64,000 bases of DNA from Sphingomicrobium sp. (GTDB taxonomy: Bacteria; Pseudomonadota; Alphaproteobacteria; Sphingomonadales; Sphingomonadaceae): positions 62,001-126,000 of the forward strand of contig DATCMI010000001.1 in the NCBI GenBank assembly GCA_036563485.1, given 5' to 3'. Position numbers and translations under genes: made by a program. The notes beneath the pieces were generated by a model. The model was given only the letters and a program-made list of their open reading frames with translations, made no database searches and was not told the origin of the DNA. Shown here one piece after another: positions 19,623 through 63,139 of this stretch (position 1 is its first letter; each line of letters starts with the position of its first letter).

Positions 19623-19723
19623 CGGAACCCTCCATCGCGGGTGACGCGCACCCTTGCCCACGGCTGCCATTGCAGCTTCATGCCTGAACCGTGGATGAAA
19701 GAAAAGCCAGTCTTTTTAGATGC

Positions 19724-45018: not shown

Positions 45019-47535
45019 ATGGCGAGAAGTAAAGAGTTCAAGCTGGTTGCCGTGATGCTCGGCCTTACACTCGCGTTGGGCGGAGCAGGCGCTTCGTTCC
45101 CGCTGCTCGCGATGTTGCTTCAGCTTTGCGGGCTGGGGCTGATTTTTTATCTCGTCCTGACACGGGGGGTGCACGCGGTTCAACCCGAAAGTAGGGTCGC
45201 AATCTTTCTTCTCTGTGCGACTCTAGCGTTGCCCCTGCTCCAGCTTGCTCCCCTGCCGCCAACCATCTGGCGGCTGCTCCCCGGGCGCCAGGTTCCGGCA
45301 GAACTCGACGCTCTCCTCGGTTGGTACCGTTGGCGCCCGCTGACCTTAGATGTCGAAGGTACGCTCCGTTCATTTCTGAACCTTCTTCCGGCGGCCGCTA
45401 TCTTCTTAGGGTGCCTGCGTCTGCGCGCATCGGAGCGCGTTCAGCTTTTTTGGGTAGTCGTTACCTTCGCATTGGTGGGGGCGCTGCTGGGCACGATCCA
45501 GTCGGTAACCCGCGGATCCTTCACGCCCTACCCCTCGGCGCACCGCGGGTACGCGGTCGGCTTGTTCGTCAATCGCAATCACAATGCGACTTTGATCCTC
45601 TCTACGATGCCTTTAGTCAGTCTACTCGCAGCCCTGTACCTCTCCCGCGGCAAGGGGCTGCTCGTGACCACTCTTGGGGCGATCGCCGCCTTCGTGGTCT
45701 TTTCCGTCGCAATCCTCGGGACGACATCTCGCATGGCGTTGCTGTTGTTGCCGATCGGCCTCGCGCTGGCATCGCTGTTGCTGATCCAGCGTCAGCACGC
45801 GATAAAAGTCGCAGTGCCCGCCGGTCTGGCGCTTTCGGCAGTCGCCCTGATCCTCCTACTGAGTGGCGGCTTCGCGAAAACGCTGATGCGTTTTTCGTCA
45901 CTTCCGGACGAGCGCCTCAACTACTGGTCGGATGTAGATTGGGCGTTCCATCGATACGGTCTATCGGGTACCGGATATGGAACATTCGTGCCGGTGTATC
46001 AGTCGGCGGAGAGCCTCGAATCGGTGTCTCCGCAAATCATTAATCACGCGCACAACGACTATTTTGAAATTCTGCTCGAAGGCGGCATCCCGGCAGCATT
46101 GCTGTTCGTGGCCGTCCTAGCTGTGCTCGGCCTCGCCCTCGTTCGGGCCCGAAAGCGGGGCGGGAGCACGGATCGATCTCTGGTGAATATCGCAGCGGCA
46201 TCGTCGATCCTGTTGATCTTGTTGTTCAGCCTCGTCGACTACCCGTTGAGGATGCCGGCAATCTCCGGGACCTTTGCATTGCTCTGCGCCGCGATTCTGC
46301 CGACACAAACGGTGCGTTCGAGCGGAACTGAGGTCGCGCTCGCCCTTAGGCCGCGCTTTCCTCTAATGACTGTCACAGCGGTTCTGATGATCGCTTCGCC
46401 GGCGCTGCTCTCGATGCAGGCTGGACTCTCGGCACGCGCGCTTTGGCAGGGCTCTTACGCTTCTGCGAGCAAGCTCGCTCCTTGGTCCACGGCTGCACAT
46501 CAAAAGGAAGCAAACAGGGCTTTTTTTCTGCAAAAGCCGAGGGTGGCCTCCGCGGAGGCGGCGCGGGCGGTTGCGCTGTCGCCGATAAACGCGCCCGCGA
46601 TCCGCACCTTAGGGCTGGTCAGGTTGAGCAACGGTGAGACCGTGAGCGGCAATCGTCTGATGAGATTGGCCGCGGCCCTCGGGTGGCGCGACCTGCCTAC
46701 GCAACTGTGGGCGATCGACGCGGCAAAAAAAACGGGCGAGCTCGAGAAAGCGGTTGATCGCGCCGAGGGTCTCTTGCGCCAACAAACGCTCGCGCCAGCT
46801 GCGGTGTTGCAGCTGCTCGACGCGCCTGATTGGACGACCATGCGCGCGCTGCTGGTGGAGCGGGTCGCTGAGCGCCCGGCATGGCGATCAACGTTCTTAG
46901 ACGCTGGCAAGGATCTTCCCGCCGCTGAGCTCGATCGCTGGGCGGAGGTGATTCAAAGCGTAAGTGGAAACCGAGCCCCGCTGACGATTTCTGATTCCAG
47001 GACCGCCGTACAGACGCTGGTCGAGCGCGGACGACTGCGATCCGCTCAGTTGCTGTGGCAGCAAACCCACGGACGAAGCTTCGTCACGAATGGTAGCTTC
47101 GATGAAGTCGATGACAGTTCAGGCGCACCCAAGTACTGGAAGCTTGCTTCAGAGAACCTGGCCAACGTTGTCGTTGAGCAGCCGGAGTTTAGCCCCGGCG
47201 ATCACGCGCTGCGCATCACGGCGAACGGAGAGTATCCCGGCGTGTGGCAGGACTTGATGCTCAAGCCAGGGAGTTATGACCTGAGCTTGCGCGCAGCTGC
47301 CGGAACGCCATCGGCCGCAACTGTTCAGTGGCAGTTGGTTTGCGATCGGTCATGGGTGGGCGATCGAAAGCCCTTGACGATCAGGCCCGGCAAAAACTGG
47401 GAGAAGGCGCGATTGTCCTTCACTGTCCCGGATCAGGACTGTCCTATCCAGAGACTAGAGATCGTGCGCGCACAAGCTATGCCCAGGGGCCCGATCTGGC
47501 TCGATGACATAGCACTCACGAAAGGGTTTCGTTAA
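45019..47535 (+). CDS. O-antigen ligase/polymerase-like membrane protein with large C-terminal extension
   Basis: 838 residues. The first 430 or so have about 11 hydrophobic segments and the large-loop motif NHAHNDYFEILLEGG of Wzy/WaaL-like proteins, with an upstream Arg-rich loop. The rest (about 470-838) is soluble: helical TPR-like repeats (for example SAEAARAVALSPINAPAIRT), then a beta-rich part from about 690 (NGSFDEVDDSSGAPKYW and a PGVWQDL strand) resembling a carbohydrate-binding module. It would polymerise or ligate the polysaccharide on the periplasmic face. The ATG follows GGGGGCAAG. First gene of the right-hand locus. Confidence 0.82.
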   Translation: MARSKEFKLVAVMLGLTLALGGAGASFPLLAMLLQLCGLGLIFYLVLTRGVHAVQPESRVAIFLLCATLALPLLQLAPLPPTIWRLLPGRQVPAELDALLGWYRWRPLTLDVEGTLRSFLNLLPAAAIFLGCLRLRASERVQLFWVVVTFALVGALLGTIQSVTRGSFTPYPSAHRGYAVGLFVNRNHNATLILSTMPLVSLLAALYLSRGKGLLVTTLGAIAAFVVFSVAILGTTSRMALLLLPIGLALASLLLIQRQHAIKVAVPAGLALSAVALILLLSGGFAKTLMRFSSLPDERLNYWSDVDWAFHRYGLSGTGYGTFVPVYQSAESLESVSPQIINHAHNDYFEILLEGGIPAALLFVAVLAVLGLALVRARKRGGSTDRSLVNIAAASSILLILLFSLVDYPLRMPAISGTFALLCAAILPTQTVRSSGTEVALALRPRFPLMTVTAVLMIASPALLSMQAGLSARALWQGSYASASKLAPWSTAAHQKEANRAFFLQKPRVASAEAARAVALSPINAPAIRTLGLVRLSNGETVSGNRLMRLAAALGWRDLPTQLWAIDAAKKTGELEKAVDRAEGLLRQQTLAPAAVLQLLDAPDWTTMRALLVERVAERPAWRSTFLDAGKDLPAAELDRWAEVIQSVSGNRAPLTISDSRTAVQTLVERGRLRSAQLLWQQTHGRSFVTNGSFDEVDDSSGAPKYWKLASENLANVVVEQPEFSPGDHALRITANGEYPGVWQDLMLKPGSYDLSLRAAAGTPSAATVQWQLVCDRSWVGDRKPLTIRPGKNWEKARLSFTVPDQDCPIQRLEIVRAQAMPRGPIWLDDIALTKGFR

Positions 47536-47611
47536 CAATTCTGAGTTTAATGATTGGAAAACAAGAACTTTGCGTTATTACAGCGCGAGTTCGTGTGAAG
47601 GGGCCCGATCT

Positions 47612-48319
47612 ATGAAACACCTGCTGGTGGCTGCCATCGCCTGCCCATTGACAGCTTGCGCGTCTACGCCACCGCTTAGCCCGACGATCACCGGCGGGTC
47701 GGAGGCCTACTCGCTGATCCCGCCTGCAACAGCCTTCGGCGCTGGAGTGGCCGACTACCGAATCGGCCCGCTCGACAAAATTGACGTGACGGTTTTTCAA
47801 GAACCTGAAATCTCCTCCAAAGCCATCGAAGTGGATGCATCCGGCCGCATCGCTCTACCTCTAATCGGGACCGTCGAAGCGAAAGGTCGGACCGCATCGC
47901 AGTTGTCGAGTGAGCTCGAGAGGCTGTTCGGCGCCAAATATCTCCGCAATCCGCAAGTTACAGTCACTGTCGCGAGCTCGGTCTCGCAAAAGGTGTCAGT
48001 TCAGGGTGAGGTCGTAGAGCCTGGTGTTTACCCAATCACTGGACCAACGACGTTATTAGACGTCCTTGCCCTCGCGAAAGGTGAAACTGAGGTCGCCAAG
48101 CTCAACCAGGTGGTAGTCTTCAGAAACGTAAATGGCGCGCGCATGGGCGCAGTGTTCGACGTCGCGAGCATTCGCCGCGGCCTCGCTGCCGACCCGGTAA
48201 TTCAAGGCAATGACACAGTCGTCGTCGGATATTCGGCAGCAAGCAGGGTTTGGCAGAACGTCGTTCGTGCGGCGCCCTTGCTGAACGTGTTCACCCGCAT
48301 CGGGCCAATTGCCCCTTAA
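47612..48319 (+). CDS. polysaccharide export lipoprotein (Wza/OPX-like)
   Basis: 235 residues. The signal ends LTACAS, a lipobox (Cys about residue 14). The Poly_export domain follows with YRIGPLDKIDVTVFQEPE, and then an SLBB domain with VSVQGEVVEPGVYPIT. The family forms the outer-membrane channel or its periplasmic part for polysaccharides. The ATG is after GAAGGGG. Directly upstream of the Wzc-type kinase, as is usual. Confidence 0.92.
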   Translation: MKHLLVAAIACPLTACASTPPLSPTITGGSEAYSLIPPATAFGAGVADYRIGPLDKIDVTVFQEPEISSKAIEVDASGRIALPLIGTVEAKGRTASQLSSELERLFGAKYLRNPQVTVTVASSVSQKVSVQGEVVEPGVYPITGPTTLLDVLALAKGETEVAKLNQVVVFRNVNGARMGAVFDVASIRRGLAADPVIQGNDTVVVGYSAASRVWQNVVRAAPLLNVFTRIGPIAP

Positions 48320-48343
48320 GCCGCCACACGGAGGCACTTCCCC

Positions 48344-50596
48344 ATGAATCTCAGCCGCAACAACCTCGTGCAATCGGCGCACGCGCAACTGCCGATGCGC
48401 TCCGTCGAAGCAGCCATGCTCCACCCTGAGTTTGTTTTTGCAAACGAAGCACCGGAAAGCGGTTTCGACCTCGTCAAGCTGTGGTCGGTCATGTGGCGTA
48501 ATCGCCTGTTGATCCTCGCAGTCCTGGCAGTCAGCCTCGCACTAGGCGTTGTAAGCCTGTTTATCTCGAGTCCCGTTTATCAGGCGACAGCAAGCATCGA
48601 GATCGAAAACCAACCCACGAAGGTTTTGGGAACGGAAGACTTCCAGCAATCCGCGAACCCGACGGACACTGATCGGCTGCTGCAGACGCAGATCGACATT
48701 TTGCGGAGCCGCGCCCTTGCGGAGCGGGTCGCCAGTGACCTCAATCTGTCGAGTAATGATCGATTTTTAGCCAGCCAAGGTGTCAAACCGCGGCCCGGTC
48801 TACGCCATGAGCAGGTGATCGAGACCCTCAGGGACTCCCTCCGCGTGTGGCTGCCCCGAAATACCCGCGTCGTTCCCGTGAGCTTTGATAGCAGTGATCC
48901 CGCTCTCGCTGCGCGGATTGCTAACCGTTACGTGGATGCACTGATTGAGGGCAACCTTCAGCGTCATTTCGATACGTCCCGCTATTCTAAAGAATTTCTT
49001 CAAGAGCAACTTGAACTTACCAAGGCGCGCCTTGAGCATTCCGAGGAAGCGCTTCTCGCCTATGCCCGCTCGGTTGGTATTGTGGACCCAAGCGCAGGCG
49101 CCGGCGACCCGAACAGCTCGACCAATAATGCGCCGCGATCGCTGACGAGTGCGAACCTCATCGATCTCAATCAGTCCCTTGCAGGCGTTAAAACCGCGCG
49201 CATTCAGGCCGAGGGCCGCTGGCGGCAAGCACTGGCGACGCCGGTGATGAGCCTCCCGGAGGTGCTCACAAATCCTGCTATTCAAGAAATGACACAGAGG
49301 CGTGCAGAACTAGAGGCGAGCTATCAACAAGATCTGCAGCATCGAAAAGCCGACCACCCGATGGTTCAGCAGCAAGCGGCGGCCATCCGCGAGCTCGATC
49401 GTCAGATTGGCACGTTGGCAAATAGCATACGTTCGTCGATCAAGAATCAATATCAAGCCGCGGTCAAGCAGGAGGCACAGCTCTCCGCGACGGTCGGACA
49501 CCTCAAAGGCGCCACAATGGCGGAACAGCAGCTTGGGATCCGCTACAACATCCTCAAGCGGGAGGTTACCACCAACCGCGAGCTGTACGACGGACTTCTC
49601 CAGCGCTATAAAGAGGTGAGCGCCGAGGCCGGCGTCACGTCAAACAATATCTCTGTTGTAGATCGCGCCAGTTCTCCCTTGCTGCCGATTTCCCCACGGC
49701 CGTTGGTGAACATTGGACTCGCTCTTCTGTTCGGACTCGCGCTCTCATTCGGCGTCGTCGTGGCTCTCGAAACCTTCCGAGATGGCGTCCGCAGCCCCGA
49801 CGAGGTGGAACAAAGGTTCGGCATACCGCTCCTTGGCCACACGCCACTGCTAGCCGCGGGCAGCGGAGCGACGGAACAGCTGATGGACCCGGGCTCGAAC
49901 GTCTCGGAAGCTTACCAGGCTGTGCGCACGTCGGTGGAGTTATCAAGCGAATTGGGTACTCCCAAGACATTGCTCATAACCAGCAGCCGCGCGGGCGAAG
50001 GCAAATCCACGACCTCGCTCGCAATGGCGCGGGACGCTGCACGGAGCGGCCGTAAGGTCCTCTTGATTGACGCCGACATGCGGCGGCCGTCGCTCCACAC
50101 CTTGTTGCGAACGGCGAAAGAACCCGGGCTCAGCAGCTTCCTAACTCAGCAGTTGCCGGCAGAACATGTCATTCAAGAAACGGATACGCCCGGTCTTTCT
50201 TTCATGCCGGCAGGACCCAAGCCGCCGAGCCCGGCTGAGCTCGTCTCGGGTATGGGAATGGGGGCGCTGCTGACTTACCTGAGCGACAAATACGATCAAA
50301 TCATCATCGACAGCCCGCCGGTACTTGGCTTGGCCGACGTTCCGCGCCTGGCCTCGATCGTTCACGCGACCATCTTGGTGATCGAGGCGAACCGCTCTCA
50401 TCGCCGAGGTATCGACAACGCCATTCGCCGTTTGAATGCTGCGCGGGCGCACATCATCGGCGCAGTGCTCGTCAAGTTCGATCCGGCGAAAGCCGATTTT
50501 GGGTACGACTATGCTGCCGACTATTATTCCTACGGGGAAGCCAGTGATGGAAAGGCGACTTTGATCCCGGCGGTCGGGGCGGCTGGGGGAGCATAA
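48344..50596 (+). CDS. Wzc-type chain-length regulator and tyrosine autokinase
   Basis: 750 residues: N-terminal Wzz domain with two membrane segments (about residues 52-72 and 440-460), a long periplasmic coiled part between, then a BY-kinase domain with Walker A SSRAGEGKST (about 547), Walker A' LLIDADMRRP and IIIDSPP. The C terminus has a Tyr cluster GYDYAADYYSYG with five Tyr for autophosphorylation. In sphingan-type clusters the two parts are often split into separate genes; here they are fused. It controls chain length and export with the Wza-like partner upstream. Confidence 0.93.
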   Translation: MNLSRNNLVQSAHAQLPMRSVEAAMLHPEFVFANEAPESGFDLVKLWSVMWRNRLLILAVLAVSLALGVVSLFISSPVYQATASIEIENQPTKVLGTEDFQQSANPTDTDRLLQTQIDILRSRALAERVASDLNLSSNDRFLASQGVKPRPGLRHEQVIETLRDSLRVWLPRNTRVVPVSFDSSDPALAARIANRYVDALIEGNLQRHFDTSRYSKEFLQEQLELTKARLEHSEEALLAYARSVGIVDPSAGAGDPNSSTNNAPRSLTSANLIDLNQSLAGVKTARIQAEGRWRQALATPVMSLPEVLTNPAIQEMTQRRAELEASYQQDLQHRKADHPMVQQQAAAIRELDRQIGTLANSIRSSIKNQYQAAVKQEAQLSATVGHLKGATMAEQQLGIRYNILKREVTTNRELYDGLLQRYKEVSAEAGVTSNNISVVDRASSPLLPISPRPLVNIGLALLFGLALSFGVVVALETFRDGVRSPDEVEQRFGIPLLGHTPLLAAGSGATEQLMDPGSNVSEAYQAVRTSVELSSELGTPKTLLITSSRAGEGKSTTSLAMARDAARSGRKVLLIDADMRRPSLHTLLRTAKEPGLSSFLTQQLPAEHVIQETDTPGLSFMPAGPKPPSPAELVSGMGMGALLTYLSDKYDQIIIDSPPVLGLADVPRLASIVHATILVIEANRSHRRGIDNAIRRLNAARAHIIGAVLVKFDPAKADFGYDYAADYYSYGEASDGKATLIPAVGAAGGA

Positions 50597-50685
50597 CCCT
50601 GGCCATCGGCACCAGCCTTCCTGCCACGACGGCGAAACACGAGGACGACTTCGACGTCCCTTCCTGTTCCTCCGGCGCGCGCTCG

Positions 50686-51477
50686 GTGCTCCCGTTTACG
50701 GAGCGGGCCTCGGGCGGCGAAGTCGTTCGCACGTTCGTCGCTGGTGTTCCTGTCGACACAATCGGCCTCCGTGAGCTGATCGACCTGATGGTCGAGCGGG
50801 CTCCGATGGACCGCAGAGACGGGATCGCCACGCTCGTCTTCGACTGCAACGGTCATGCGCTGTCCTTGGCTGCGCGGGACGTTAGATATCGTTTGGATCT
50901 GCTGTCGGCCGACATCATCCACGCCGACGGCCAAGTGATCGTGGCGGCGTCCAGGCTCTACGGATCGTTCCTTATACCCGACCGGTCAGCAACTACTGAC
51001 ATGTTCATCGACAGCCTCGATGCGGCGAAGTCAGCTGGCGTTCGATATTTCCTGCTCGGGGGCACAGAGGAGGTCAATCACGCCTGTGCTGCTGAGTTGG
51101 ACCGACGGGCGCCTGGGCTCGTCGTCGGTCGACACCACGGCTTTTGGTCGGAGGCCGCCGAGGCGGATCTGATCGACCAAATAAATGCAGCCCAGCCCGA
51201 CGTCATCTGGGTTGGTCTTGGAAAGCCGCGCGAGCAGGCATTTTGCGTTCGACACCGCATGGACATCGCGGGCGGCTGGCTAGTGACCTGCGGCGGTCTC
51301 TTCAACTTCGTAACCGGCCATTATCCTCGTGCACCCAAATGGATGCAGACGGCCGGATTGGAGTGGCTGCACCGGGCAATCACCAATCCGCGGCTCCTCT
51401 GGCGTTATTTGGTAACCAACCCGCATGCGATGTGGCTGATTTGGAGGCACCGGAGAGGAAGCGATGCATCCCGCTGA
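50686..51477 (+). CDS. WecG/TagA/CpsF family glycosyltransferase
   Basis: 263 residues with the family pattern: VDTIGLRELIDLM, then HADGQVIVAAS, YFLLGGTEEV and PDVIWVGLGKPREQAF. These enzymes transfer a sugar (often ManNAc or a uronic acid) to a lipid-linked precursor. The start is uncertain: a GTG at 50686 has no clear ribosome site, and an in-frame CTG at 50599 right after wzc has GGGGGAG before it. Its end overlaps the next gene by 14 bases. Confidence 0.88.
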   Translation: MLPFTERASGGEVVRTFVAGVPVDTIGLRELIDLMVERAPMDRRDGIATLVFDCNGHALSLAARDVRYRLDLLSADIIHADGQVIVAASRLYGSFLIPDRSATTDMFIDSLDAAKSAGVRYFLLGGTEEVNHACAAELDRRAPGLVVGRHHGFWSEAAEADLIDQINAAQPDVIWVGLGKPREQAFCVRHRMDIAGGWLVTCGGLFNFVTGHYPRAPKWMQTAGLEWLHRAITNPRLLWRYLVTNPHAMWLIWRHRRGSDASR

Positions 51478-52885
51478 AGCCCCACGGCAGGTCGGTGCGG
51501 CTCCTGTTCGAGTGTCCGTTCGGCTTCCTTTGAAGGCAACGAGGCTAGCGCGGCGATTTATGCTGTCCCTTCCGCTCGTCTGGTTGCTGGGAATCGGCCC
51601 TGCTGCGGGGGCGCTATTTGCAGTCACTTTCGCCCGCAACGGACGCCGACTTGCCGCACCCGAGTTCGCGCTGCTCGGCTTGGTGGCCGCGCTGGCGCTG
51701 TCGCTTGGTGTTGCTGGGTTCAGCGGAGAGCCCGTGCAGCGCCTCATCGCTGGCGCTTACAACATCGTCGTGCTGCTCTGTGGCTGCGCTGCATTCTCGT
51801 TCGGCCGGCGCTTCGACCTCGGCTTCTCGATGAGCCGAAAAGAGGCGCGTCGCATAGTTGCATTCTTCTTCGGTTATGCCGCTTTCGCCCTTGGTGCTTA
51901 TCTGTTTGCAGGCAGGTCAGCGCCGGAGATCTCCTTCCGGTCGCTACTCACCGGACATGTCGCCCACGGCTTGCCCGGAATTCTTGGCTTGTACGAATTC
52001 TCGACGATCACCGGTGTCGATTGGGCTTCTGGGGATGCAGTGCCGCGTCCGCTTGCCTTCGGCATATACTCCAATGAGGGAGCATTAATGTTCACGCTCT
52101 GCGGCATCGCGGCGTTCGCCGCCAGCCGCCAAGCTTGGATGAAGCTAATGATTGTCGGCCTGATGGCGTTTGGGTTACTTGCGCTCGGCAGCCGGATCCT
52201 CATCTTCAGCTTTCTTGCGGCTGTCTTGATAGGGCTGGTTGCGCGAGCACGCCTGCCCAAGAACCTACGACCCATGGTGCTTGCGCTCAGCTTGGCATCC
52301 GCAATGGTACTTGTAGCCGTCCACCCCGGTGCCGTTCTCGGCGCTTGGGACAAGGTGCTCGCCGCACGCCAATCCTCGTCCGATGCGAGGTTCCTGTCCT
52401 ACTCCACCGCACTGGCCGAAACTTGGCGTGAAAGTCCAATTATCGGCCAAGGGATCAAGCGCCGTGACGAGGCGGTGTTGGCGATACCTATCGGATCGCA
52501 CTCAACGCCCGTCTCGATCTTCACGAAGGGCGGCATGGCAGCGCTTGCGGCACTGCTCCTGTTCATGGCCTTGGCTGTTCGAACTTCGCTTACGCTCTTG
52601 GCATCGCGGGAGCTGCGCGGACGTCATCGGGACACCCAGATTGCGCTTGGACTGTGCGGCGTCATTGTCCCCGCCTGGATGCTGTTCGAGGATATCGATG
52701 CGCCGATCTATGGAGCGATGATGGCGTTCATGTTCCTCGGCGCTGCAGAGGGTTTCCGGGTTCGGCTTTACCGGTACGTCAATCACAGACACGCGATCCT
52801 TCGTGCTGCTGCGCGCGGGAGCTCATTGGCGGTGGGTCAGGACCCGGCCAGGCGCTTTGCAGGCACTCGATCAGCGGGCCATTGA
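51464..52885 (+). CDS. polysaccharide polymerase-like membrane protein (Wzy)
   Basis: 473 residues, about 11 membrane segments with a long periplasmic loop containing RETWRESPIIGQG-like text (here LAETWRESPIIGQGI) of Wzy/O-antigen-ligase proteins. A basic N terminus of about 30 residues precedes. The ATG lies 14 bases before the stop of the glycosyltransferase and has GAGGAA upstream, so the two are co-translated. The 3' end overlaps the tail of the convergent flippase gene by 49 bases. Confidence 0.82.
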   Translation: MHPAEAPRQVGAAPVRVSVRLPLKATRLARRFMLSLPLVWLLGIGPAAGALFAVTFARNGRRLAAPEFALLGLVAALALSLGVAGFSGEPVQRLIAGAYNIVVLLCGCAAFSFGRRFDLGFSMSRKEARRIVAFFFGYAAFALGAYLFAGRSAPEISFRSLLTGHVAHGLPGILGLYEFSTITGVDWASGDAVPRPLAFGIYSNEGALMFTLCGIAAFAASRQAWMKLMIVGLMAFGLLALGSRILIFSFLAAVLIGLVARARLPKNLRPMVLALSLASAMVLVAVHPGAVLGAWDKVLAARQSSSDARFLSYSTALAETWRESPIIGQGIKRRDEAVLAIPIGSHSTPVSIFTKGGMAALAALLLFMALAVRTSLTLLASRELRGRHRDTQIALGLCGVIVPAWMLFEDIDAPIYGAMMAFMFLGAAEGFRVRLYRYVNHRHAILRAAARGSSLAVGQDPARRFAGTRSAGH

Positions 52886-54165
52886 CTGCGGCAGTTTCTT
52901 GAAAGCCGAGCGACCGAGTAGGTGTTGACCAGCTGGCCGGCAATCAGCCCAGCAACAGACCAGACAGGCGCGGCAAAGAGCAGTACTGTGCCGGTCACGA
53001 AAACAGATATCGCGGCGGCTTGCGCCTTGACGACCGCAGTTTCACGGAACAGACCGAGCGCTTGGAGCAGGCTCCAGTCGGGGCCTTGCAGCGCGCTCAA
53101 TCCACTGACGCCCATCCACAATACGGCGCCGGCGAGTAGCGTGTTGAACCCATAGCTCCGCGGAAACAAAAGGTACGGATTGAGAGCGAACAGCACTGCG
53201 ACGGCGAGAGCCGTAGCGAGCCACGCAAGCACGAGCGTTGCCCGCGCCCACGCCAGGCTCGTTTGCGCCTCTTTGAAGGACCTTTCTCGGATCAGTCCGG
53301 CGAGACGGGGCCGCTCCACATCCTGGACGGCAACGCTGGCGAAAAAGATTGGACGGATCAGAAGCCCGGTTGCCGCAATCGGAGCGTAAGCTGTGCCTCC
53401 AGCGACGATCGTAACCATGTACGCAGTCGCGTTGACGGCAAGCTCACCACATGTGACGGAGGCAAGCGACCAAGACGAGCGTGCGCCGGTAAGGCGGATC
53501 CACCGCCGGACCGGTCGTCGGCCAAGCTCTGCTGTGGAGACTTCCAGGAACTCGCGGCCAAAAGGGAAAAGCGCGACGAGTGCCGCCGCGCCCATCGAGC
53601 CATAAACGTAAGCGAGCGTAACCTCTCCCGAAGAAGCAAGGGCGAGGATGGACGCTGTTAGTGCTGACGCATAGACGATGTCAGATAAAAAGCTTCTGAG
53701 CTGCCGAGCATGAAGGTACGCATGTGCCCTCCCGAACCAGCGCAGCAGGGAAATGCAGGCAAAGGCGGCAAAGAAAGCCGCCGACGAATAATCGAGCCCT
53801 ACCAGCAACGGGACTGCGGCAAACAACGGCAGCCCAAGGAGGGAGGCCGTGAGATTCCCAGACCCTGCAATACGCTCGACGAAACGCTGTCGGTGAGGTT
53901 TGACTGCATGCGTGCTGTGGGGGAGTGGCGCACAGAAAGTTGCCTGCCACGCCGTCCAGCAGAAAGCGACAAAGCTCAGCAAGAATGCATAGCCGCCAAA
54001 CGCCGCATGCGACACGTGGTGAAGCAGCACCATGGACTGAATGAAATGTGCGCCGGCGACGCTCGCCGGGCCGACCATTGCAAGCGTTGAAATCGTCGCC
54101 CGAGCACGCCAAGTCATCCCGGAATTGACGGCAATGCGCTTGCGGGTGGTGGAGGCCCTATTCAT
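52837..54165 (-). CDS. Wzx-like polysaccharide flippase
   Basis: 442 residues, with about 12 hydrophobic segments in the MOP/MATE-like pattern; no strict motif is available for this family. It should move lipid-linked repeat units across the inner membrane. The ATG at 54165 has GAGG about 11 bases upstream. The longer frame (to 54384) has a non-membrane N terminus that looks untranslated. It runs against the neighbours, so the locus has at least two transcripts. Confidence 0.75.
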   Translation of the reverse strand: MNRASTTRKRIAVNSGMTWRARATISTLAMVGPASVAGAHFIQSMVLLHHVSHAAFGGYAFLLSFVAFCWTAWQATFCAPLPHSTHAVKPHRQRFVERIAGSGNLTASLLGLPLFAAVPLLVGLDYSSAAFFAAFACISLLRWFGRAHAYLHARQLRSFLSDIVYASALTASILALASSGEVTLAYVYGSMGAAALVALFPFGREFLEVSTAELGRRPVRRWIRLTGARSSWSLASVTCGELAVNATAYMVTIVAGGTAYAPIAATGLLIRPIFFASVAVQDVERPRLAGLIRERSFKEAQTSLAWARATLVLAWLATALAVAVLFALNPYLLFPRSYGFNTLLAGAVLWMGVSGLSALQGPDWSLLQALGLFRETAVVKAQAAAISVFVTGTVLLFAAPVWSVAGLIAGQLVNTYSVARLSRNCRSQWPADRVPAKRLAGS

Positions 54166-54500
54166 CTGGCCGTGAATCCTCGGCACTGACTCACCTTGCA
54201 CCGGACCAAGAACCCACGCTACCAATATTGGCGATAGCGTCCAATCCAAGATCGCTTCACCGCACAGCGGAGAGCCTGACGCGTGTTTCCAAAACCGAAC
54301 ACTGGCGTCACAATTGGCGAGAGGCTTGCGAGCATATCGGCCGATCGCAAGAATAGGTCGGCACCTCGCGGGGCTCAGACCCACTACGCTGGGTCCGCCA
54401 CTGGAGTTGCGGCAACGAAACTTTATGGGCGCTCGTCTCGCTTAGCTGTGCCAGGCGCAACCCCATCGGTGAGCAGGTCTCGGGTGAGGAACCAGCGAGC
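54166..54500. other. intergenic region between flippase and ParB-like gene
   Basis: About 335 bases between divergent starts. No gene is supported; the open frame at 54283-54504 has no good start or composition. Promoters for both neighbours are expected here, but none can be named. Confidence 0.4.
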
Positions 54501-55385
54501 GTGACCGTTGCCCGAGCGTACATCAAGCTGCTCCTGAACAAGATCGGGTACGAAGTGAGGCCGCTCGCGTCACCCGCTTCGCTGGAGATCGTTCCGGAGG
54601 GAGCAGATCCGGTCACTTACGAATACCACGCGAAAAGGCGTGGCCTTGCGCTTTTCGACGTTTGGCTGCGCGACGTCCGCAGCTTCAATACTCTCGCTCT
54701 CCCATTGACGGTGCAATGCAATCCTTTCGTCAGAGCGCTCGCGGCGGCACTGCATGCGCAGGACGAAAAAGGCGCCCGCACTCAGTTGGAAGCTGTCCTT
54801 TCTGAGTTTTACGAAAAGGTGCAGCCAAGCTGCGCCTTGGACTTGCTCGGAGTTCGCATCGACCAGGCGCCGGGTCTGCGAAGCGTTCCGCCCCGCGGCA
54901 GCGTGCCCCCTTGGTACTCCGACACGACTGCCGAATATGAGGACGGCTGGCGGCACGGCGGAGCGCTGGAAGCGCTACAAAATGGTTTGATATGGGCTCC
55001 CGATATCGGCACTACTCACTTTGGCCCGGCTCGACCGGAAAAGATTAGCCTTGAGGCCAAACGCCTCATGAGCCTACTCCGTTCGGTAAGGCGCCGAGGT
55101 TTCATTCACCATCAACCGCGCGCGCCGCTCCAGGTGAATGCTCACCGGCGCGACGGCGAATACCGGTGGGTTATTACTGGTGGCGAGCACCGGCTTGCGC
55201 TTGCCAAGGTTCTCGGCGTGGAGCACGTGCTTGCCATGGTAACTCGCGTCATTCGCCGGGAGGACTCGGCGTATTGGCCAAACGTCGCGAACGGGCTGTA
55301 CACGCACGAAGGTGCTCTACGCGTGTTTGACCGCATATTTGACGGTGAGCCGGCGCCGATCTGCCAGCGATGGCTAAGCGGCTAG
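54501..55385 (+). CDS. unknown protein with ParB/Srx-like C-terminal domain
   Basis: 294 residues, no signal or membrane segment. The last 110 residues hold YRWVITGGEHRLALAKVLGVEHV, which is like the ParB/sulfiredoxin fold pattern (a strand, then GE[RH]R-x-A, then a short helix and another strand). The N-terminal 190 residues are unfamiliar, with YEYHAKRRGLALFDVWL early on. The GTG start has GAGGAA 9 bases upstream. It lies alone between two minus-strand polysaccharide genes. The function is unknown; it may be an enzyme acting on small molecules, or a nucleotide binder, not a partition protein. Confidence 0.6.
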   Translation: MTVARAYIKLLLNKIGYEVRPLASPASLEIVPEGADPVTYEYHAKRRGLALFDVWLRDVRSFNTLALPLTVQCNPFVRALAAALHAQDEKGARTQLEAVLSEFYEKVQPSCALDLLGVRIDQAPGLRSVPPRGSVPPWYSDTTAEYEDGWRHGGALEALQNGLIWAPDIGTTHFGPARPEKISLEAKRLMSLLRSVRRRGFIHHQPRAPLQVNAHRRDGEYRWVITGGEHRLALAKVLGVEHVLAMVTRVIRREDSAYWPNVANGLYTHEGALRVFDRIFDGEPAPICQRWLSG

Positions 55386-55425
55386 CAGGGAGTTGCAGCG
55401 CGTGCCGCTCCCCCGGACTATCGGA

Positions 55426-56400
55426 CTACACGTTTCGTCCAAAACGCTTCGCGAAACGCACCACCGAATCATTGCGCACGAGCCCGGTACTGCATGCAAG
55501 CGCGAGGTAGGCGCGCTTCTCTTTGATATTGTGTCTAAGCGCTTTCCTGGCCCAGGACCGCGCCCGCGGATACTCACCAAGTCCGGCGTACGCGAAGGCG
55601 ATCTGCCCCTGAATGCGTGCGAGCCCCCGAGGATGCTGGGAAAATCCGGGATGGCGATTCAGCACATAAAGCAGGCCGTCGATGATAACGCGCCACTGCT
55701 CAGTGTAGAATGAGTGAGAATGCCAGTAGATGCGCACGAGTGGCTCTGGCACACAACGAATGGGTGCAACGGCTGATGCGCGAAGCAGCCATTCGTAGTC
55801 TTCGGCGTAGCCGCCGGGGATCTCCTCATCAACCAACCCAATGCGATCCAAGATCAATTCGCGTCGCGACAGAACAGTGCACGGATTGACCTCCATGATC
55901 CGATCCTCGAGAAAATCGCCGTGATTCAGGGGCCGTCGGGGAGCGGGCCGCGTGCGATCGCGACCATTGAAGTGCACCAAAATTCCCGTGGCGACCACTG
56001 ACGCGCCCGGGTGCTGATCCATCAGACTCAGCTGTGCAGCCAACTTGCCGGGGAGCCACTCGTCGTCGTCATCGCAGAAGCCCATGATGGGATTGGACGC
56101 GGCTAGGATCCCGCTGTTGCGTGCACCGGCAAGCCCCGGCTTTCGCGTATTTTTGACGGCCTTCACGGTACGGCCGGCAGGCAGGTCTGACCGAAGCGGA
56201 ATTTCGTGCGGCTCCGACTGGTCGAATACGACCACGCATTCGATCGGCCCGTCATGATCTTGCGTCAGGATCGCCTCGACCGCACGCGCGAGCAGTTGTG
56301 GTCGGTCGCGGGTCGGAATCGTGACCGACACAGCATTGCTGGATTGCCGCTTTCGAGGAACGGTTCTCGCCAAAAGATCTTCTCGCATCAAGGTGATCAC
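55426..56400 (-). CDS. GT2 family glycosyltransferase
   Basis: 324 residues. GT-A motifs: VSVTIPTRDRPQLL at the start, GLAGARNSGILAA, then GFCDDDDEWLPGKL with the metal-binding DxD. A GGYAEDYEWLLRAS region marks the acceptor side. No membrane segment is seen, so it probably acts at the cytoplasmic face on the lipid-linked repeat unit. The start is GTG, or an ATG 4 codons later; neither has a clear ribosome site. Confidence 0.87.
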   Translation of the reverse strand: MITLMREDLLARTVPRKRQSSNAVSVTIPTRDRPQLLARAVEAILTQDHDGPIECVVVFDQSEPHEIPLRSDLPAGRTVKAVKNTRKPGLAGARNSGILAASNPIMGFCDDDDEWLPGKLAAQLSLMDQHPGASVVATGILVHFNGRDRTRPAPRRPLNHGDFLEDRIMEVNPCTVLSRRELILDRIGLVDEEIPGGYAEDYEWLLRASAVAPIRCVPEPLVRIYWHSHSFYTEQWRVIIDGLLYVLNRHPGFSQHPRGLARIQGQIAFAYAGLGEYPRARSWARKALRHNIKEKRAYLALACSTGLVRNDSVVRFAKRFGRNV

Positions 56401-56530
56401 GCGGCGAACACAACCGCATTAGCGGTATAGCAGCGCGGTGCGGGATCCTTCCAGCAGTAAGTGCTGAGGCAACCACCATCCCGGGAAGCTAACCTGATGG
56501 TAACGATTAGGGAGCGACAAGTGGGCTTCA

Positions 56531-57634
56531 ATGCGGAGCACACTGATGCGCCTTCAACTCGCACGTCCTCTCATTGCGGCTGCAAGTCTGCTTGCTGCAG
56601 TTGCGGTGTCAGCGTCGGCAACCGCCGCTCCCGTTTCACTGCGAGCCTTCGCCGCCGAGCAGATGCGCCTTGAAGCGATCGGCTATCGCATAGGGGTCGG
56701 AAGCGCGGCCATGTGCTCCGAACGTGAGATGTACACGGGTATGGTGGTGCACGACCTCAGCCAATATGATCTTTCGGTCAGGCCAGCGGTTGCGCACGCC
56801 TTTTCCCTTGGCGCTGGCGTGGGTGTCATCCAGATTGTCCCCGGAAGTGCCGCAAGCCGGTCCGGCCTGCGCATCGACGACGAGATATTGGCCGTCGATA
56901 GCCGGAGCGTTCTCAATGAAGCAGCGACGGTTCAACGGCAGAAGTCGTACGCACGGATCCAGCAGTTCAAGGCTCTCCTCAAGACCGCGCTGCTAGGTGG
57001 CCCGGCGGACCTTCTAGTGCGTCGCAGCGGCACCTTGCTCCGCGTGCAGCTGGCAGGGGAGCCCGGTTGCGGCGGCCAGCTCTCGCTGATTGATTCGCGG
57101 GAAGCCAACGGCTGGTCCGACGGAAGTAATGTGATCGTCACGACGGGCATGTCGCAGCTTGCCAAAAGTGATGATGAAATCGCGTTCGTGGTCGCGCATG
57201 AAATGGCCCACAATATCCTGGCCCATGCACGCTCCTCCTCGCCTCAGCTGTTCGGGCTGAGCCTCGGCGTTGGCAAAGTGCGAAAATCGGAATTAGACGC
57301 CGATCGTCTGGCCGTCACGCTGATGCGCCATGGCGGCTACAGGGCGGAGGCGGGTGTCAGCGTCCTGCAAGTTGCAAGTCGTCGATACTGGTGGGCGGTT
57401 TCGCTGGACCACCCCGGGTTTGGCAGGCGCATCCGGGAGGTGAATGCCGCGATCGCCGATATGCCGAGCTATGGCAGAGACCCGGTTAACGTCGCGCAGA
57501 GCGGGCGGCCGGTCACACCAGTCCTCGCCCTAAGCGCAGCTGCGGTGCAGGTTGCGGCAAGCGGCCTCGATGCCTCCCGCAACATTCAGATACTGGAAAG
57601 TCCGCCCGCGCGATTGCGCCGGCCTACATCATGA
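56531..57634 (+). CDS. secreted M48 metalloprotease with PDZ domain
   Basis: 367 residues. A signal peptide (about 6-33) precedes a PDZ-like domain (about 95-175, with IQIVPGSAASRSGLRIDDEIL) and then the M48 catalytic part with HEMAH at 223-227, and ELDADRLAV for the third ligand. It probably acts in the periplasm, with the PDZ domain binding the substrate or regulating. Two starts are possible: ATG 56531, or ATG 56546 with GGAG 9 bases upstream. It sits inside the polysaccharide locus. Confidence 0.85.
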   Translation: MRSTLMRLQLARPLIAAASLLAAVAVSASATAAPVSLRAFAAEQMRLEAIGYRIGVGSAAMCSEREMYTGMVVHDLSQYDLSVRPAVAHAFSLGAGVGVIQIVPGSAASRSGLRIDDEILAVDSRSVLNEAATVQRQKSYARIQQFKALLKTALLGGPADLLVRRSGTLLRVQLAGEPGCGGQLSLIDSREANGWSDGSNVIVTTGMSQLAKSDDEIAFVVAHEMAHNILAHARSSSPQLFGLSLGVGKVRKSELDADRLAVTLMRHGGYRAEAGVSVLQVASRRYWWAVSLDHPGFGRRIREVNAAIADMPSYGRDPVNVAQSGRPVTPVLALSAAAVQVAASGLDASRNIQILESPPARLRRPTS

Positions 57635-57656
57635 CGGGGACGATGAACTGCGGCTT

Positions 57657-57938
57657 TTAGGCCGGGCTGACATTCGATGGGCCGTCGTTGCCACCGCCGG
57701 CGAGGGCTGCGACGCCTCCCGCCGCAAGAAGCGCCGGCAGCAGGAATGGCAGGCCCAAAAAGCGCCTCTTCGCTGCAACGGTGGGAGAGGCGGGTTCAGT
57801 AACGACATCCTGCGGCACTGCGGCGGCCACTCGGTCGACTACGGGGAGCACCGGTCGGCAATCCTGAGGACGCACCTGCGCGAAAGCCGGGGTGGCGAGG
57901 AGCGCTAAACCAACGGCGAGCGAAATCGGCTTTCTCAT
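57657..57938 (-). CDS. small exported protein with C-terminal hydrophobic segment
   Basis: 93 residues, starting ATG after GGAGGA. A signal peptide (about 1-20, ending PAFAQ) and a second hydrophobic stretch near the end (LPFLLPALLAAGGVAALAG) make a secreted protein with a C-terminal anchor. It has two Cys/Pro-rich parts in between. No family is known. It is convergent with the protease gene, and lies downstream of the J-domain gene. Confidence 0.65.
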   Translation of the reverse strand: MRKPISLAVGLALLATPAFAQVRPQDCRPVLPVVDRVAAAVPQDVVTEPASPTVAAKRRFLGLPFLLPALLAAGGVAALAGGGNDGPSNVSPA

Positions 57939-58010
57939 AGTTCCTCCACTCGAATCAGCGTGTCGTAGTTCATTTTGTGTTAAATGCAAATCTGTCAGAT
58001 CGTTCCGTCA

Positions 58011-58874: not shown

Positions 58875-58981
58875 CAAATTACGGCTCGCGCGGACGGAAA
58901 CGCCCCGCGACTGCAGCTGCCGCGCTTGGATCGAATCCCTGCAGGCCGAGTTGCCTCATCTAACTTGGCTCATTGGCACCG

Positions 58982-60367
58982 TCAGAATGCGTTCGGGTGA
59001 ATAAGAACCCTGAACGTCACGAAAATGATCTTCAAGTCGCGCCAAATGCTCCAGCCGACGACATATTCAAGGTCCGATTTCAGCCTCGACGTGACATCGG
59101 TTCGGCGGGCGGTCGCTCCGCGGAAGCCGCGAACCTGGGCAAGGCCGGTGATCCCCGGCTTTATCGCATGTCGGTCAAAATAACCCGGGTCGATCTGCCA
59201 GAACAGCAGGTTCTCGGCGGTCGAGCCAAGAGCGTGCGGCCGCGGACCGACAATGCTCATGTGGCCCATGAGAACGTTGAACAGCTGCGGCAATTCGTCG
59301 ATGCTCGTCTTGCGGATGAATCGGCCAACTCGGGTCACCCGATCATCGTCGACGCTCGCCGACCGATCGCCTTGCGAGTCAGTGCACTCGACCTTCATGC
59401 TCCTGAATTTCAGGACGTAAAAAATCCGATTGTTCTGACCGAGCCTTCGCTGCCGGAAGAAAATCGATCCAGGCGACTCCACAGCAATCGCTACTGCAAC
59501 CGCAAGCATCAGCGGTCCAACAAGGATGAGCGCCGCAAGCGCACCAACGAGATCGAGCGCTCGTTTGAGCACGCGGTCGCGGAGGCTCAGTCGTCCTGAG
59601 TTAACCAGGAGTGTCAGGTCGCCCTGAAATCGGCCAACCGCCATGCCGCCCATCGCGCCGAGCTCCGGCATCGCAATCTCGACGTTCAGGTTTGTACCCC
59701 TGAGCGTGCTTATCCACGCTGCCCGCCGCTGCGGCGGGCAGAGGATGATCAGCCGGTCGCAGTTTGTGAGGAGACGCGCCAGCCTGTCCAGCATCATAGG
59801 ATTGTTGGACAGCGGCTGAATTCCGAGGTCGAGCGGATTGAGTACCAGTTCCCCGCGGTTCGCGTTGACGTGAATGCCGTCGGCGAGGACCAACTCGTTT
59901 GAAAAACGCCACTTGTACGCCTTGCATAGCGCCCGGCCCAGCGCGATGCGCCCGGTGACGGTGAGCGCCAGGGCGGTGATGGTACCGATGGCGAATAGGA
60001 GGCGGGAGAATTGCACACCAATTTTCAAGAAGAACAGCAATGCTAGAGCGACACCTGTGGCGCAGAGGAGCGCTTCGAGCGCTCTGCGCGCGCCTAAGGT
60101 CGGGCGCTTCAATGCTTCGATAGAATAGGCTCGGTTGTTCAGCGCGATGGGGATAAATGTCGGCAAGACAATCGCGAGTGTTCGCCACCCGTCGAGCCCG
60201 AAGATCGACCCAAGGCGGACGCGCTCGGCGAACTGAAAAGCGACGACGATGCAGAGGACGTCCAGCAGGAGCAGTGCGGAAAAGAGTGCAAGCCTCAGCT
60301 GGCCTTTTCCATGTGGGAACAGAGGCGCGGCTAAGCTTGACCGTTCCGCTTCCGTCTTCATGATCAT
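58982..60367 (-). CDS. polyprenyl-phosphate sugar-1-phosphate transferase
   Basis: 461 residues. An N-terminal membrane part (four or five hydrophobic segments, to about 170), a middle CoA-binding-like domain, and the C-terminal bacterial sugar transferase domain with a membrane helix (about 270-295), [21 protein letters not shown] and [25 protein letters not shown]. It starts the repeat unit by moving a sugar-1-phosphate, often glucose or galactose, to undecaprenyl phosphate. The ATG at 60367 has GAAGG upstream; one at 60361 or 60415 is possible. Confidence 0.92.
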   Translation of the reverse strand: [461 protein letters not shown]

Positions 60368-60528
60368 GAAGCCTTCGGCAGGTGAAGCACAGCCTTCAGC
60401 TTGAACCAGACTCATACCAGCCGTTAACTCATTGTTTCCACAAGCAGCTATACGCGCGTAGTTAACAAGGCAAGCACGGGCCTCATCAAGGTTGGCCGCA
60501 TGTCGCATTCTGGGACAGGAAACCGGTA

Positions 60529-60556
60529 CAAGCGCCACCCGCTGAGGTGGCGCTTG
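60529..60556. repeat. perfect 11-bp inverted repeat
   Basis: CAAGCGCCACC (60529-60539) and GGTGGCGCTTG (60546-60556) with a 6-base loop CGCTGA. It lies in the divergent space between the sugar transferase and the small secreted gene, without a T-tract, so it is more likely an operator or an RNA leader hairpin than a terminator. Confidence 0.7.
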
Positions 60557-60628
60557 ACTCTCGAGAGTTCCGGAACAACAGCTGCACAATCCAGTTTGTT
60601 TACCCGCAAATTAACCGGGAGAATGCTT

Positions 60629-60997
60629 ATGCTCGCCAGATGTGCAGCGGCGGTGGCGGCCTTGTCGATTGCCTCGGCAGCGGCAGCTCAGTGGAAACCC
60701 GGGATGGAGATCGTCGGGCAGCAGGTGCAGGTGCAGACCAACGGCATCCTGAACACAATAACCTTCGACGCGGGAGGTACGGCTCACATCAGCTCCCCGT
60801 CGGGAGCGACGGTGGTTGACGCGACTTGGACGGCGAACGCCGGCAAGCTTTGCCTGCAGACAGCCAGCACATTCGACTGCTATCCTTATCGCGCGCCGTT
60901 CACAGCCCGCGCGCCTGTGGACCTCATCAGCGATTGCGGAGTGAGGTCCACCTGGACTGTCATGACGACTGCGGTGGCGCCATTCGAGCGCGGCTAA
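60629..60997 (+). CDS. small secreted protein of unknown function
   Basis: 122 residues. The signal peptide (about 1-20) ends AAAAQW. The mature part is beta-rich with three Cys near the end and a Thr/Ala/Ser-rich start. No family is recognised. The ATG at 60629 has GGGAGA 8 bases upstream; the longer frame to 60500 covers a hairpin and is unlikely. Confidence 0.6.
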   Translation: MLARCAAAVAALSIASAAAAQWKPGMEIVGQQVQVQTNGILNTITFDAGGTAHISSPSGATVVDATWTANAGKLCLQTASTFDCYPYRAPFTARAPVDLISDCGVRSTWTVMTTAVAPFERG

Positions 60998-61285
60998 GCC
61001 GCATTTTGTCCTGAACAGGCCGGCGCATTTGTCGCAATAGACAACGAGTGGGCTCTTGTTTCTTTAACGCCGCAATCACTGCCGACTTGCGCTCGCAATT
61101 GGTGTAGGCGGGCTGATCCGCCTGCCTCTGGGTGGCCGCTGGCGCTCGCACCAGGCGCGGAACGAAGCCCTGAAGCCTCGGATGACGGTCCGCTCCCGTT
61201 CGACGTCGAGCAGTCGCTCTAGGAATTAACGTGCTGCTACACGATCAAGCGTCTAGTCTGGTCCATTCCGGGACCCTGAATTGCG
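60998..61285. other. intergenic stretch between convergent small secreted genes
   Basis: About 290 bases; no gene or clear terminator is seen. Confidence 0.4.
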
Positions 61286-61675
61286 CTACCGGCAGATGCT
61301 GTCGAAAAGCTTTTCCGCGACGCTTCCGGGATTGATCACCATTGGCCCAGTCTCTTTGTACCGGGCAAGGACACGACCGGTCGCGGCCATCTCCACCCTG
61401 AACTTTTCAACAAACGTTCGATCGTCGCAATTGATGGTCCAAAGCAGGCGCGCGTGCTTGGGCCCGCTGCCTGGCACGCGCGAATAATCGGCGCGAATCA
61501 GGGCACTGGTGCCGCCGTGCGAGCGGCGGGCGGATGCCGCGTTGTAGGAATATAGCCGTTCCTGCCCAGGGTCGCCGCAGCTCGCGAAATGCGTCCAGCT
61601 CGCAGCCACAGCTTCCGGGGAACCCGCGAGCAGCAGCCCTGCGAGCGCAAGCCGCGCCGCAAGAGCGGGGTTCAA
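61286..61675 (-). CDS. small secreted protein, surface-adhesin E-like
   Basis: 129 residues from a TTG start with GGAGG 6 bases upstream. The signal (about 1-22) ends EAVAAS, then a beta-rich mature part with YSYNAASARRS, RLLWTINCDDRTF and a final SICR. This pattern is like the small surface-adhesin E family of unknown job, but only loosely. The frame extends to 61978 without support. It stands alone, in the polysaccharide locus. Confidence 0.6.
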   Translation of the reverse strand: MNPALAARLALAGLLLAGSPEAVAASWTHFASCGDPGQERLYSYNAASARRSHGGTSALIRADYSRVPGSGPKHARLLWTINCDDRTFVEKFRVEMAATGRVLARYKETGPMVINPGSVAEKLFDSICR

Positions 61676-62131
61676 AACGGACCTCCGCCGGCTGGCCAGC
61701 CCGTGTTCCGAAGCATCATGTTGCTCCCACCCTGTTCGAGATGCCATCTTGCGTAAAGCGCCGCTTGGCACCAATCGGTCGCTCCGTCTACAGACGTCGG
61801 ACGGCAACGCGGCCGGTTCAACCAACGAGGACCTGCCGTCGCAGCTGATAGCGGCCAGTCGGACGCTAAGGGTTGCTCCGCGAACCGCGGCGCCAATTAC
61901 GATCCACGGGGCGCTTGGCTCCCATACTGAATTGCGCAGATCTTTGTTATTTGCGTGCAGACGCCACTCAACGCACATTCGCGGGAGCGTCCGCCATGAA
62001 CCACGGGGTTGCGCCCTTTGCCGGCCGGTAAGCTGTTCACCGTCGCTCCGCGGTGCTGCCGTTGACGATCTTGTACTGCGCAGCTGGCCCCCGACGAGGC
62101 CGCGCCGTTGAAAGCTTTTCTGACGCGGAGA
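61676..62131. other. gene-free stretch before galE end
   Basis: About 455 bases. Open frames here have poor composition and no good starts. No terminator is evident after galE. Confidence 0.4.
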
Positions 62132-63139
62132 CTAGCTTGCGGATCTTGATTCCCAGCGCAACGCGTCGCGCAAGATCGTGTCTAGGTCATCATATTGAGG
62201 GCGCCAATTCAGTTCGGACTGCGCGAGCGAGGGATCAGCAATCACTGCCGGCGGATCTCCAGCCCGAGCCGGGCATAAACGGACGTTCAATCGCGTCCCC
62301 CCTACTCTCTCCGCCGCCTCAATCACCTGCTTGACAGAGAATCCTCGCCCGTATCCGCAGTTTGCGACGATGCAATGCCCGCCAGCGAGTAACCGTTTCA
62401 GTGCGAGCACGTGAACGTCGGCAAGGTCCGATACGTGGATGTAGTCGCGTACCCCTGTGCCATCTGGCGTTGGAAACTCAGTGCCAAATATCTCCACGAC
62501 ATTCCTGCGGCCAACCACTTGTTCGACCACGGCTTTTATCAAATGAGTGGCACCTGCGGTGCGTTGCCCTGCGCGTCCCTGAGGGTCAGCGCCTGCCACA
62601 TTGAAGTATCGCAGAGCTGCAAACCGGAATGGAAATGCAGCGGCGACGTCACGAAGCATCCATTCGATAACGAGCTTGGAGGCACCATAGGGATTGATCG
62701 GATTGGGTATCGCCGCTTCGGTGATCGGCAATTCTTCCGGTATCCCGTAGATGGCTGCCGTCGACGAGAAGACGAAGTTGCACACTCCGGTGATGATCAT
62801 TGCTTCAAGAAGTGCGCGGGTGCTGCAAGAGTTGTTGCTGTAGTATTTGAGCGGGTTCGCCACCGATTCGGGTACGGTTAGAGACGCAGCAAAGTGCATG
62901 ACCGCGTCGAACGAACCGTCGCGGAGGAGCTTCACTACGAAGTCGAGGTCACCAACCTCTCCGAGGACAAATGCAGCTTTAACCGGAACTGCCGAGCGAA
63001 AGCCCGTAGAAAGATTATCCACTACCGTTACGCGATATCCGGCATCGCAGAGCGCAAGAACAACGTGGCTTCCAATGTAACCGGCACCACCGGTCACTAG
63101 GATATGCTCTTTCCCGTTCTTTCGCGAGATGTTCGCCAT
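62132..63139 (-). CDS. galE: UDP-glucose 4-epimerase
   Basis: 335 residues. The Rossmann NAD motif is GGAGYIGSH at about residues 17-25, the catalytic Ser/Thr is in FSSTAAIYG, and the YxxxK pair is in NPYGASKLVIE. It interconverts UDP-glucose and UDP-galactose to feed the polysaccharide. The ATG has GGGAG 10 bases upstream. Confidence 0.96.
   Translation of the reverse strand: MANISRKNGKEHILVTGGAGYIGSHVVLALCDAGYRVTVVDNLSTGFRSAVPVKAAFVLGEVGDLDFVVKLLRDGSFDAVMHFAASLTVPESVANPLKYYSNNSCSTRALLEAMIITGVCNFVFSSTAAIYGIPEELPITEAAIPNPINPYGASKLVIEWMLRDVAAAFPFRFAALRYFNVAGADPQGRAGQRTAGATHLIKAVVEQVVGRRNVVEIFGTEFPTPDGTGVRDYIHVSDLADVHVLALKRLLAGGHCIVANCGYGRGFSVKQVIEAAERVGGTRLNVRLCPARAGDPPAVIADPSLAQSELNWRPQYDDLDTILRDALRWESRSAS

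Follow-up and report, generated by a model that had tools for sequence, protein, structure and literature searches.

The gene at 54501–55385 and its polysaccharide locus

The DNA analyzed is a stretch of 64 kb from Sphingomicrobium sp., referred to here as the window; the source genome is a single contig. An open reading frame at 54501–55385, called in an earlier sequence-only reading of this DNA, was confirmed (Table 1). The encoded protein is devoid of hydrophobic stretches and is probably cytoplasmic.

Table 1. Coordinates of the gene, the regions of its product and the surrounding genes in the window
Feature	Position	Strand	Basis or remark
Left locus part: Wzy_C, Poly_export/SLBB (Wza-type), Wzz/AAA_31 (Wzc-type), WecG/TagA/CpsF transferase, second Wzy_C-like gene	45019..52885	+	Pfam
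Membrane protein, tentatively a Wzx-type flippase, divergent neighbour	52837..54384	-	6 hydrophobic stretches (simple hydropathy), no Pfam match
Likely ribosome-binding site GAGGAA, 9 nt 5' of the start	54486..54491	+	Read from sequence
Orphan gene of a putative ParB-fold protein	54501..55385	+	294 aa, GTG start; open reading frame and homologues
N-terminal region, residues 1–166, no known family	54501..54998	+	Partly conserved with the Sphingomonadales homologue
ParB/Srx-like domain, residues 168–250: Box I helix region, then P motif	55002..55250	+	Pfam and PHROGs matches, hhalign
P motif G228-E-H-R231 (GxxR)	55182..55193	+	G, H and R invariant in 3/3 members
C-terminal tail, residues 251–294	55251..55382	+	W-P-x-V in 3/3 members; F-D-x-x-F-D-G in 2/3
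Family 2 glycosyltransferase (GT2), convergent neighbour	55426..56400	-	PF00535, E 2.1e-19
Right locus part: initiating sugar transferase (Bac_transf), GalE-like epimerase, other genes between	58982..63139	-	Pfam

The surroundings are represented by genes for a Wzc-type chain-length kinase, for Wza-type export and for Wzy_C proteins and by transferase and glycosyltransferase genes, which bears out the polysaccharide locus proposed in that reading. The second Wzy_C-like gene scores 30.9 bits, just below the cut-off of 31.7. Altogether, three genes for O-antigen ligase/polymerase-like (Wzy_C) proteins are present within approximately 20 kb, at 45019–47535, 51464–52885 and 63640–63966, the last of which runs on into the stretch L037 (640–2001, minus strand).

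The gene at 54501–55385 stands alone on the plus strand between two genes of the minus strand and is therefore not in an operon with them. It was found in none of 36 congeners. The adjacent GT2 gene is likewise missing from all 60 congeners searched at E ≤ 1e-20, so that the part of the locus around 54501–55385 is strain-variable. The third-position GC content (GC3) of the gene is 0.67, like that of the locus genes (0.60–0.70) and unlike that of recA (0.86) and mreB (0.84) in the same window; thus, the gene is compositionally part of the locus. For the locus genes measured (45019–63139), third-position GC is below that of recA and mreB, as expected for exchanged loci.

In the closest homologue, which belongs to the same order, the N-terminal region is partly conserved from the first residues onward, the conserved stretches being the protein start, Y..QP..A.D.LG and PP..W. 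For the N-terminal residues (approximately 165), nothing reached E 1 in Pfam, NCBIfam, PHROGs or PADLOC, and a phmmer search of PDB sequences returned chance-level matches only (best E 0.3); the long N terminus had been called new, and in these libraries it is. Further downstream, G-G-E-H-R occupies residues 227–231 (bases 55179–55193) and includes the GxxR P motif as defined in a survey of the ParB-CTPase fold (PMC12704722). Drawn up after the gene and its relatives had been seen, the pattern [VILM][VILM]x(1,2)G[LVGFCEQ]HR has a single match across all six reading frames of the window, at this gene. The tail that follows the domain comprises approximately 44 residues and is too short for the HTH and dimer domains of ParB.

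Distribution of the family and context of its other members

The protein is a member of a small, rare, previously undescribed family with three known cases. A genome from a different family of the Sphingomonadales carries a full-length homologue (29% identity over residues 14–287, E 3e-25) and is the sole other genome with a match at E 0.001 among 60 relatives and the own genome; this homologue is also present in record CANMND010000006.1, with 28–29% identity to the window protein. Used as a tblastn query, it detected the third member in Acetoanaerobium noterae (Clostridia), with 24.5% identity at 98% coverage and E 7e-15. With the window protein as a direct query, the Acetoanaerobium record was not found at E 0.01, and the link between the two therefore passes through the Sphingomonadales sequence in the middle. 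In the three-way alignment, the two homologues are 27% and 21% identical to the window protein, and 34 positions are invariant.

Searches for further full-length members came back empty in two genome sets of the order (296 and 157), one of the class (385) and one of the phylum (398); the single genome in the phylum sample that carries the gene (1/398) is the own genome. Two scans of genome contigs gave no match in the first case and, among the matches listed, only the already known homologue in the second. Seven weak matches of the order search (L003–L009) look like noise, since a ParB-type gene was found in none of them and a chance match to the motif pattern in L004 only.

The gene was also considered as phage or plasmid cargo, and this was rejected, as the phage, viral-contig and plasmid searches yield no confirmed relative except one Acetoanaerobium record, a molecule of 2.63 Mb labelled a plasmid. 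By tblastn, the phage collection gave chance-level matches only (E 3–5), and the plasmid records gave the Acetoanaerobium record and three Streptomyces matches at E 1–2. Four scans of viral contigs gave no confirmed relative.

The locus of the Sphingomonadales homologue (L011) contains, in order, genes for a Wzz-type protein, a Wzx-type protein, a SAM-dependent methyltransferase, the ParB-like protein and a family 4 glycosyltransferase (GT4); a Wzy_C-like gene below the cut-off and more glycosyltransferase genes are present on the other strand. With the TTG start listed for the GT4 gene, the end of the ParB-like gene overlaps it by up to 19 bases, an arrangement that suggests a single operon. 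The four best PDB matches of the methyltransferase are all WbdD (E 1.5e-9 to 7.5e-9), followed by methyltransferases of the phosphoethanolamine type (approximately 1e-6); the protein comprises 263 aa, and the kinase domain is absent. No WbdD-like methyltransferase was found in the window locus, and the own genome gave matches to the SAM-binding core only (best E 6.6e-8). Accordingly, pairing with the methyltransferase is a trait of one locus and not of the family. In L011, at 19350–20184, there is a CRISPR-array-like run of 13 copies of a repeat of approximately 36 bases, spaced by 65–68 bases and with unlike spacers, approximately 8.5 kb from the ParB-like gene.

To judge from the open reading frames, the Acetoanaerobium gene has unrelated metabolic genes around it. 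Linkage to polysaccharide genes thus holds for two of the three members, with Acetoanaerobium as the exception; a conserved place in other polysaccharide loci, which the sequence-only reading had raised for checking, is found in L011 and not in Acetoanaerobium. The Acetoanaerobium protein is longer (457 aa). Its approximately 190 additional N-terminal residues (L013:11455–12024) have weak matches only: PHROGs phrog_10265 of unknown function (E 0.0063, residues 166–207), Pfam DUF5347 (E 0.93) and a best PDB match at E 0.27.

Relation to the ParB domain, partition proteins and sulfiredoxin

In the window protein, Pfam ParB_N (PF02195) matches residues 177–250 with E 0.2 and 12.2 bits, missing the curated cut-off of 26.3, and NCBIfam has no ParB-type match. 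PHROGs gives ParB-like matches at E 0.0068 and 0.012 and, at the same place, a ‘DNA binding protein’ match at E 0.043. The ParB_N match of Pfam is absent from the two homologues; PHROGs gives a ParB-like match for the GQHR core of the Acetoanaerobium protein (E 0.019) and none for the Sphingomonadales homologue. No library model exceeds its curated cut-off on any member of the family.

Comparisons of profiles were more informative. In 385 genomes of the class and at E ≤ 0.01, profile A2, built from the three family proteins only and without any ParB, gave 19 partial, core-only matches in addition to the own gene. At 17 of these 19 loci (L015–L033), a gene with Pfam ParB_N lies at the match and on the matched strand (E 2.7e-8 to 3.4e-4), 11 of the 17 scoring above the Pfam cut-off; these ParB-type genes were located by the motif pattern and scanned with Pfam afterwards. 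At the other two loci, L029 and L030, the matched stretch is interrupted by stops and the pattern is missing; both are noise-like. L043, from a later search, agrees with the pattern when judged by eye, but Pfam finds nothing in it at E 0.01. Short stand-alone ParB_N proteins are encoded at 15 of the 19 loci (L015–L024, L027, L028, L031–L033); where the frame is short they comprise approximately 82 aa, with the sequence ‘IYVP...RYVLVEGLHRLEACKALGE...’ and a P motif, and have no room for an HTH.

In hhalign, the canonical ParB of the own genome, which was not picked through the A2 profile, scored 29.9 with A2 and 28.7 with A3, the maxima for shuffled columns being 16.9 and 15.6 (60 shuffles each). 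The Box I helix ‘RLMSLLRSVRRRGF’ is paired with ‘ALDELADSIRQRGV’ of this ParB, and the GxxR P motifs are paired likewise. A profile with two rows, the own ParB and Escherichia coli YbdM, cut from alignment A4, scored 14.96, 19.43 and 18.23 with A1, A2 and A3. These scores are near the shuffle range and count against the ParB reading; the low values may be due to misalignment of YbdM. The result with A4 itself is partly circular, because seven of its nine rows came from the A2 profile; the single own ParB did not.

AlphaFold2 models of two sequences are of low confidence (pLDDT 37.1 and 41.2), and a Foldseek search with the model of pLDDT 41.2 gave nothing significant (best E 0.27). From the profile comparisons we infer that the protein probably has a fold of the ParB/Srx type. 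The ParB/Srx-like core proposed from the sequence is thereby borne out at the level of the family (17 of 19 A2 loci and an hhalign score of 29.9 against the shuffles), with the library cut-offs missed. With the ParB N-terminal domain PF02195, the family shares the GxxR P motif after a Box I helix and profile similarity to the own ParB; it differs in scoring below the cut-off and in a stretch from Box I helix to P motif that is longer by approximately 9 residues than in the own ParB, according to hhalign. The family probably represents a known fold in a new and rare form.

Several identities suggested by this fold were rejected. Neither HTH_ParB, ParB_C nor TIGR00180 matches the window protein at E 1 (Pfam, NCBIfam), and no parS site within 3 mismatches of the consensus was detected in the window. 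The genome has a canonical ParB with HTH_ParB and ParB_C; its gene, at C1:1032848, is next to those for GidB and a ParA-type ATPase. A Pfam scan of 14 window proteins gave a single ParA-like match, in the kinase domain of the Wzc-type protein (48344–50596), in agreement with the earlier statement that neither ParA nor parS is nearby. A partition protein is therefore ruled out by the lack of an HTH or dimer domain match, the absence of parS from the window and the canonical gidB-parA-parB cluster elsewhere; a plasmid origin or partition locus is ruled out by the single-contig genome, the canonical ParB elsewhere and the absence of parS from the window. Unlike canonical ParB, the protein also has a new N-terminal region.

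With sulfiredoxin, the family shares the phosphate-gripping motif GxHR. Where sulfiredoxin has the catalytic Cys of its motif FGGCHR, the three members have E, Q and Q. Hence, of the Srx side of the sequence-only reading, the shared GxHR core stands and sulfiredoxin proper is ruled out. PADLOC, used to look for defence genes, gave nothing at E 1 for any of the three members.

Possible role of the protein

The survey of the ParB-CTPase fold reports binders of CTP, ATP and GTP, so that the fold has recently been shown to bind several nucleotides, and describes its occurrence in many orphan proteins (PMC12704722). It presents SerK, SbnI and Srx as members devoid of HTH, in which the fold is an ATP-binding module of enzymes; the SerK-like protein studied there bound CTP in place of ATP, and nucleotide specificity is stated not to be readable from sequence (PMC12704722). 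The domain-centred part of the survey started from PF02195, and the word polysaccharide is absent from its main text (PMC12704722); the family described here, being below the PF02195 cut-off, may have been missed by it. In the open-licence literature, as far as it was covered, no ParB-fold protein was found described in polysaccharide synthesis.

Our best guess, held tentatively and by analogy, is that the protein may be a nucleotide-dependent phosphotransferase acting on a sugar or a small decoration of the repeat unit. The diverged ParB/Srx-type domain would bind NTP (ATP or CTP) by the Box I helix and loop together with GxHR, nucleotide binding through GxHR being probable. The bound nucleotide would then serve for phosphotransfer to a component of the repeat unit before export, similar to SerK and SbnI, rather than for a DNA clamp. 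The free serine kinases SerK and SbnI are themselves ParB-fold proteins without HTH that use ATP or ADP on a small molecule (PMC12704722, PMC5120207); a sequence search found no match to either among PDB structures. In favour of an enzyme are the lack of any match to a DNA-binding module in the window protein, whereas the own ParB matches HTH_ParB and ParB_C, and the run of Wzx, methyltransferase, ParB-like and GT4 genes in L011. Against a phosphotransferase are the low score with the profile of ParB and YbdM, the two homologues in which Pfam gives no ParB_N, the unlinked Acetoanaerobium gene with its additional N-terminal part, the lack of a WbdD-like partner in the window locus and the position of the window gene outside any operon with its neighbours. 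The broader wording of the sequence-only reading, a nucleotide-using enzyme or regulator, seems plausible.

WbdD is reported to phosphorylate and then methylate the end of the O9a chain, and the methylphosphate end group of Klebsiella O7 is attributed to a methyltransferase and a kinase domain unrecognisable by sequence (PMC3482155, PMC11231755, respectively). The ParB-like gene of L011 resembles this system in adjoining the gene of a methyltransferase with WbdD as its best PDB matches; WbdD, a kinase-methyltransferase, differs in that its kinase is of the eukaryotic type and caps ABC-exported chains (PMC3482155). Since WbdD serves such chains and both loci here look like the Wzx/Wzy type, we infer that the repeat unit is more likely to be changed than the chain to be capped. 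A more specific version, in which a ParB/Srx-fold glycan kinase family phosphorylates a repeat-unit sugar and in some loci passes the phosphate to a kinase-less methyltransferase of the WbdD type, would be distinctly unlikely. If the protein is enzymatic, a fold of chromosome partition would enter glycan synthesis, and for those phosphate decorations of bacterial polymers that are unassigned the family would be a candidate.

A nucleotide-switched regulator of the locus, which when loaded with CTP or ATP would bind DNA or a protein partner and set transcription or the activity of assembly, is somewhat unlikely, and would by analogy be a serious rival to the phosphotransferase, because EdeB, of the ParB family, is reported to activate the edeine biosynthetic cluster and to bind its promoter (PMC9641203); VirB is reported to work by a CTP switch (PMC10770331). 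The weak ‘DNA binding protein’ match in PHROGs and the position of the window gene, a separate transcription unit next to a divergently oriented gene, are consistent with regulation, whereas the window protein has no HTH family match in Pfam or NCBIfam and only a short tail after the ParB domain, the L011 gene lies within a run of enzyme genes, and one member is outside polysaccharide loci. If regulatory, the protein would link nucleotide pools to polymer synthesis. Glycosyltransferase genes adjoin the ParB-like gene in both polysaccharide loci, and the longer stretch between Box I helix and P motif may make the base pocket different from that of the own ParB. Both points agree with a structural or scaffold protein, the pocket of which would hold a nucleotide-sugar (CMP-, CDP- or UDP-linked) and present it to a glycosyltransferase; such a role is conjectural throughout, we know of no ParB fold that binds nucleotide-sugars, and we regard it as improbable.

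A passenger without any role in the polymer, that is, a mobile orphan ParB-like gene landed by chance in variable loci, is unlikely as well. Its patchy distribution (0/36 congeners, and the own genome alone among 398 of the phylum) and the unlinked third member fit such a gene, and orphan ParB proteins are described as often located on mobile elements (PMC12704722). The phage collection and the four viral-contig scans speak against it, having provided no relative and no confirmed relative, respectively, as do the plasmid records, with the Acetoanaerobium molecule and the three marginal Streptomyces matches as their only yield. Further arguments against chance are the GC3 of the gene, which fits the locus genes and not recA or mreB, and the occurrence of two members, 28% identical, in polysaccharide loci with different neighbours.
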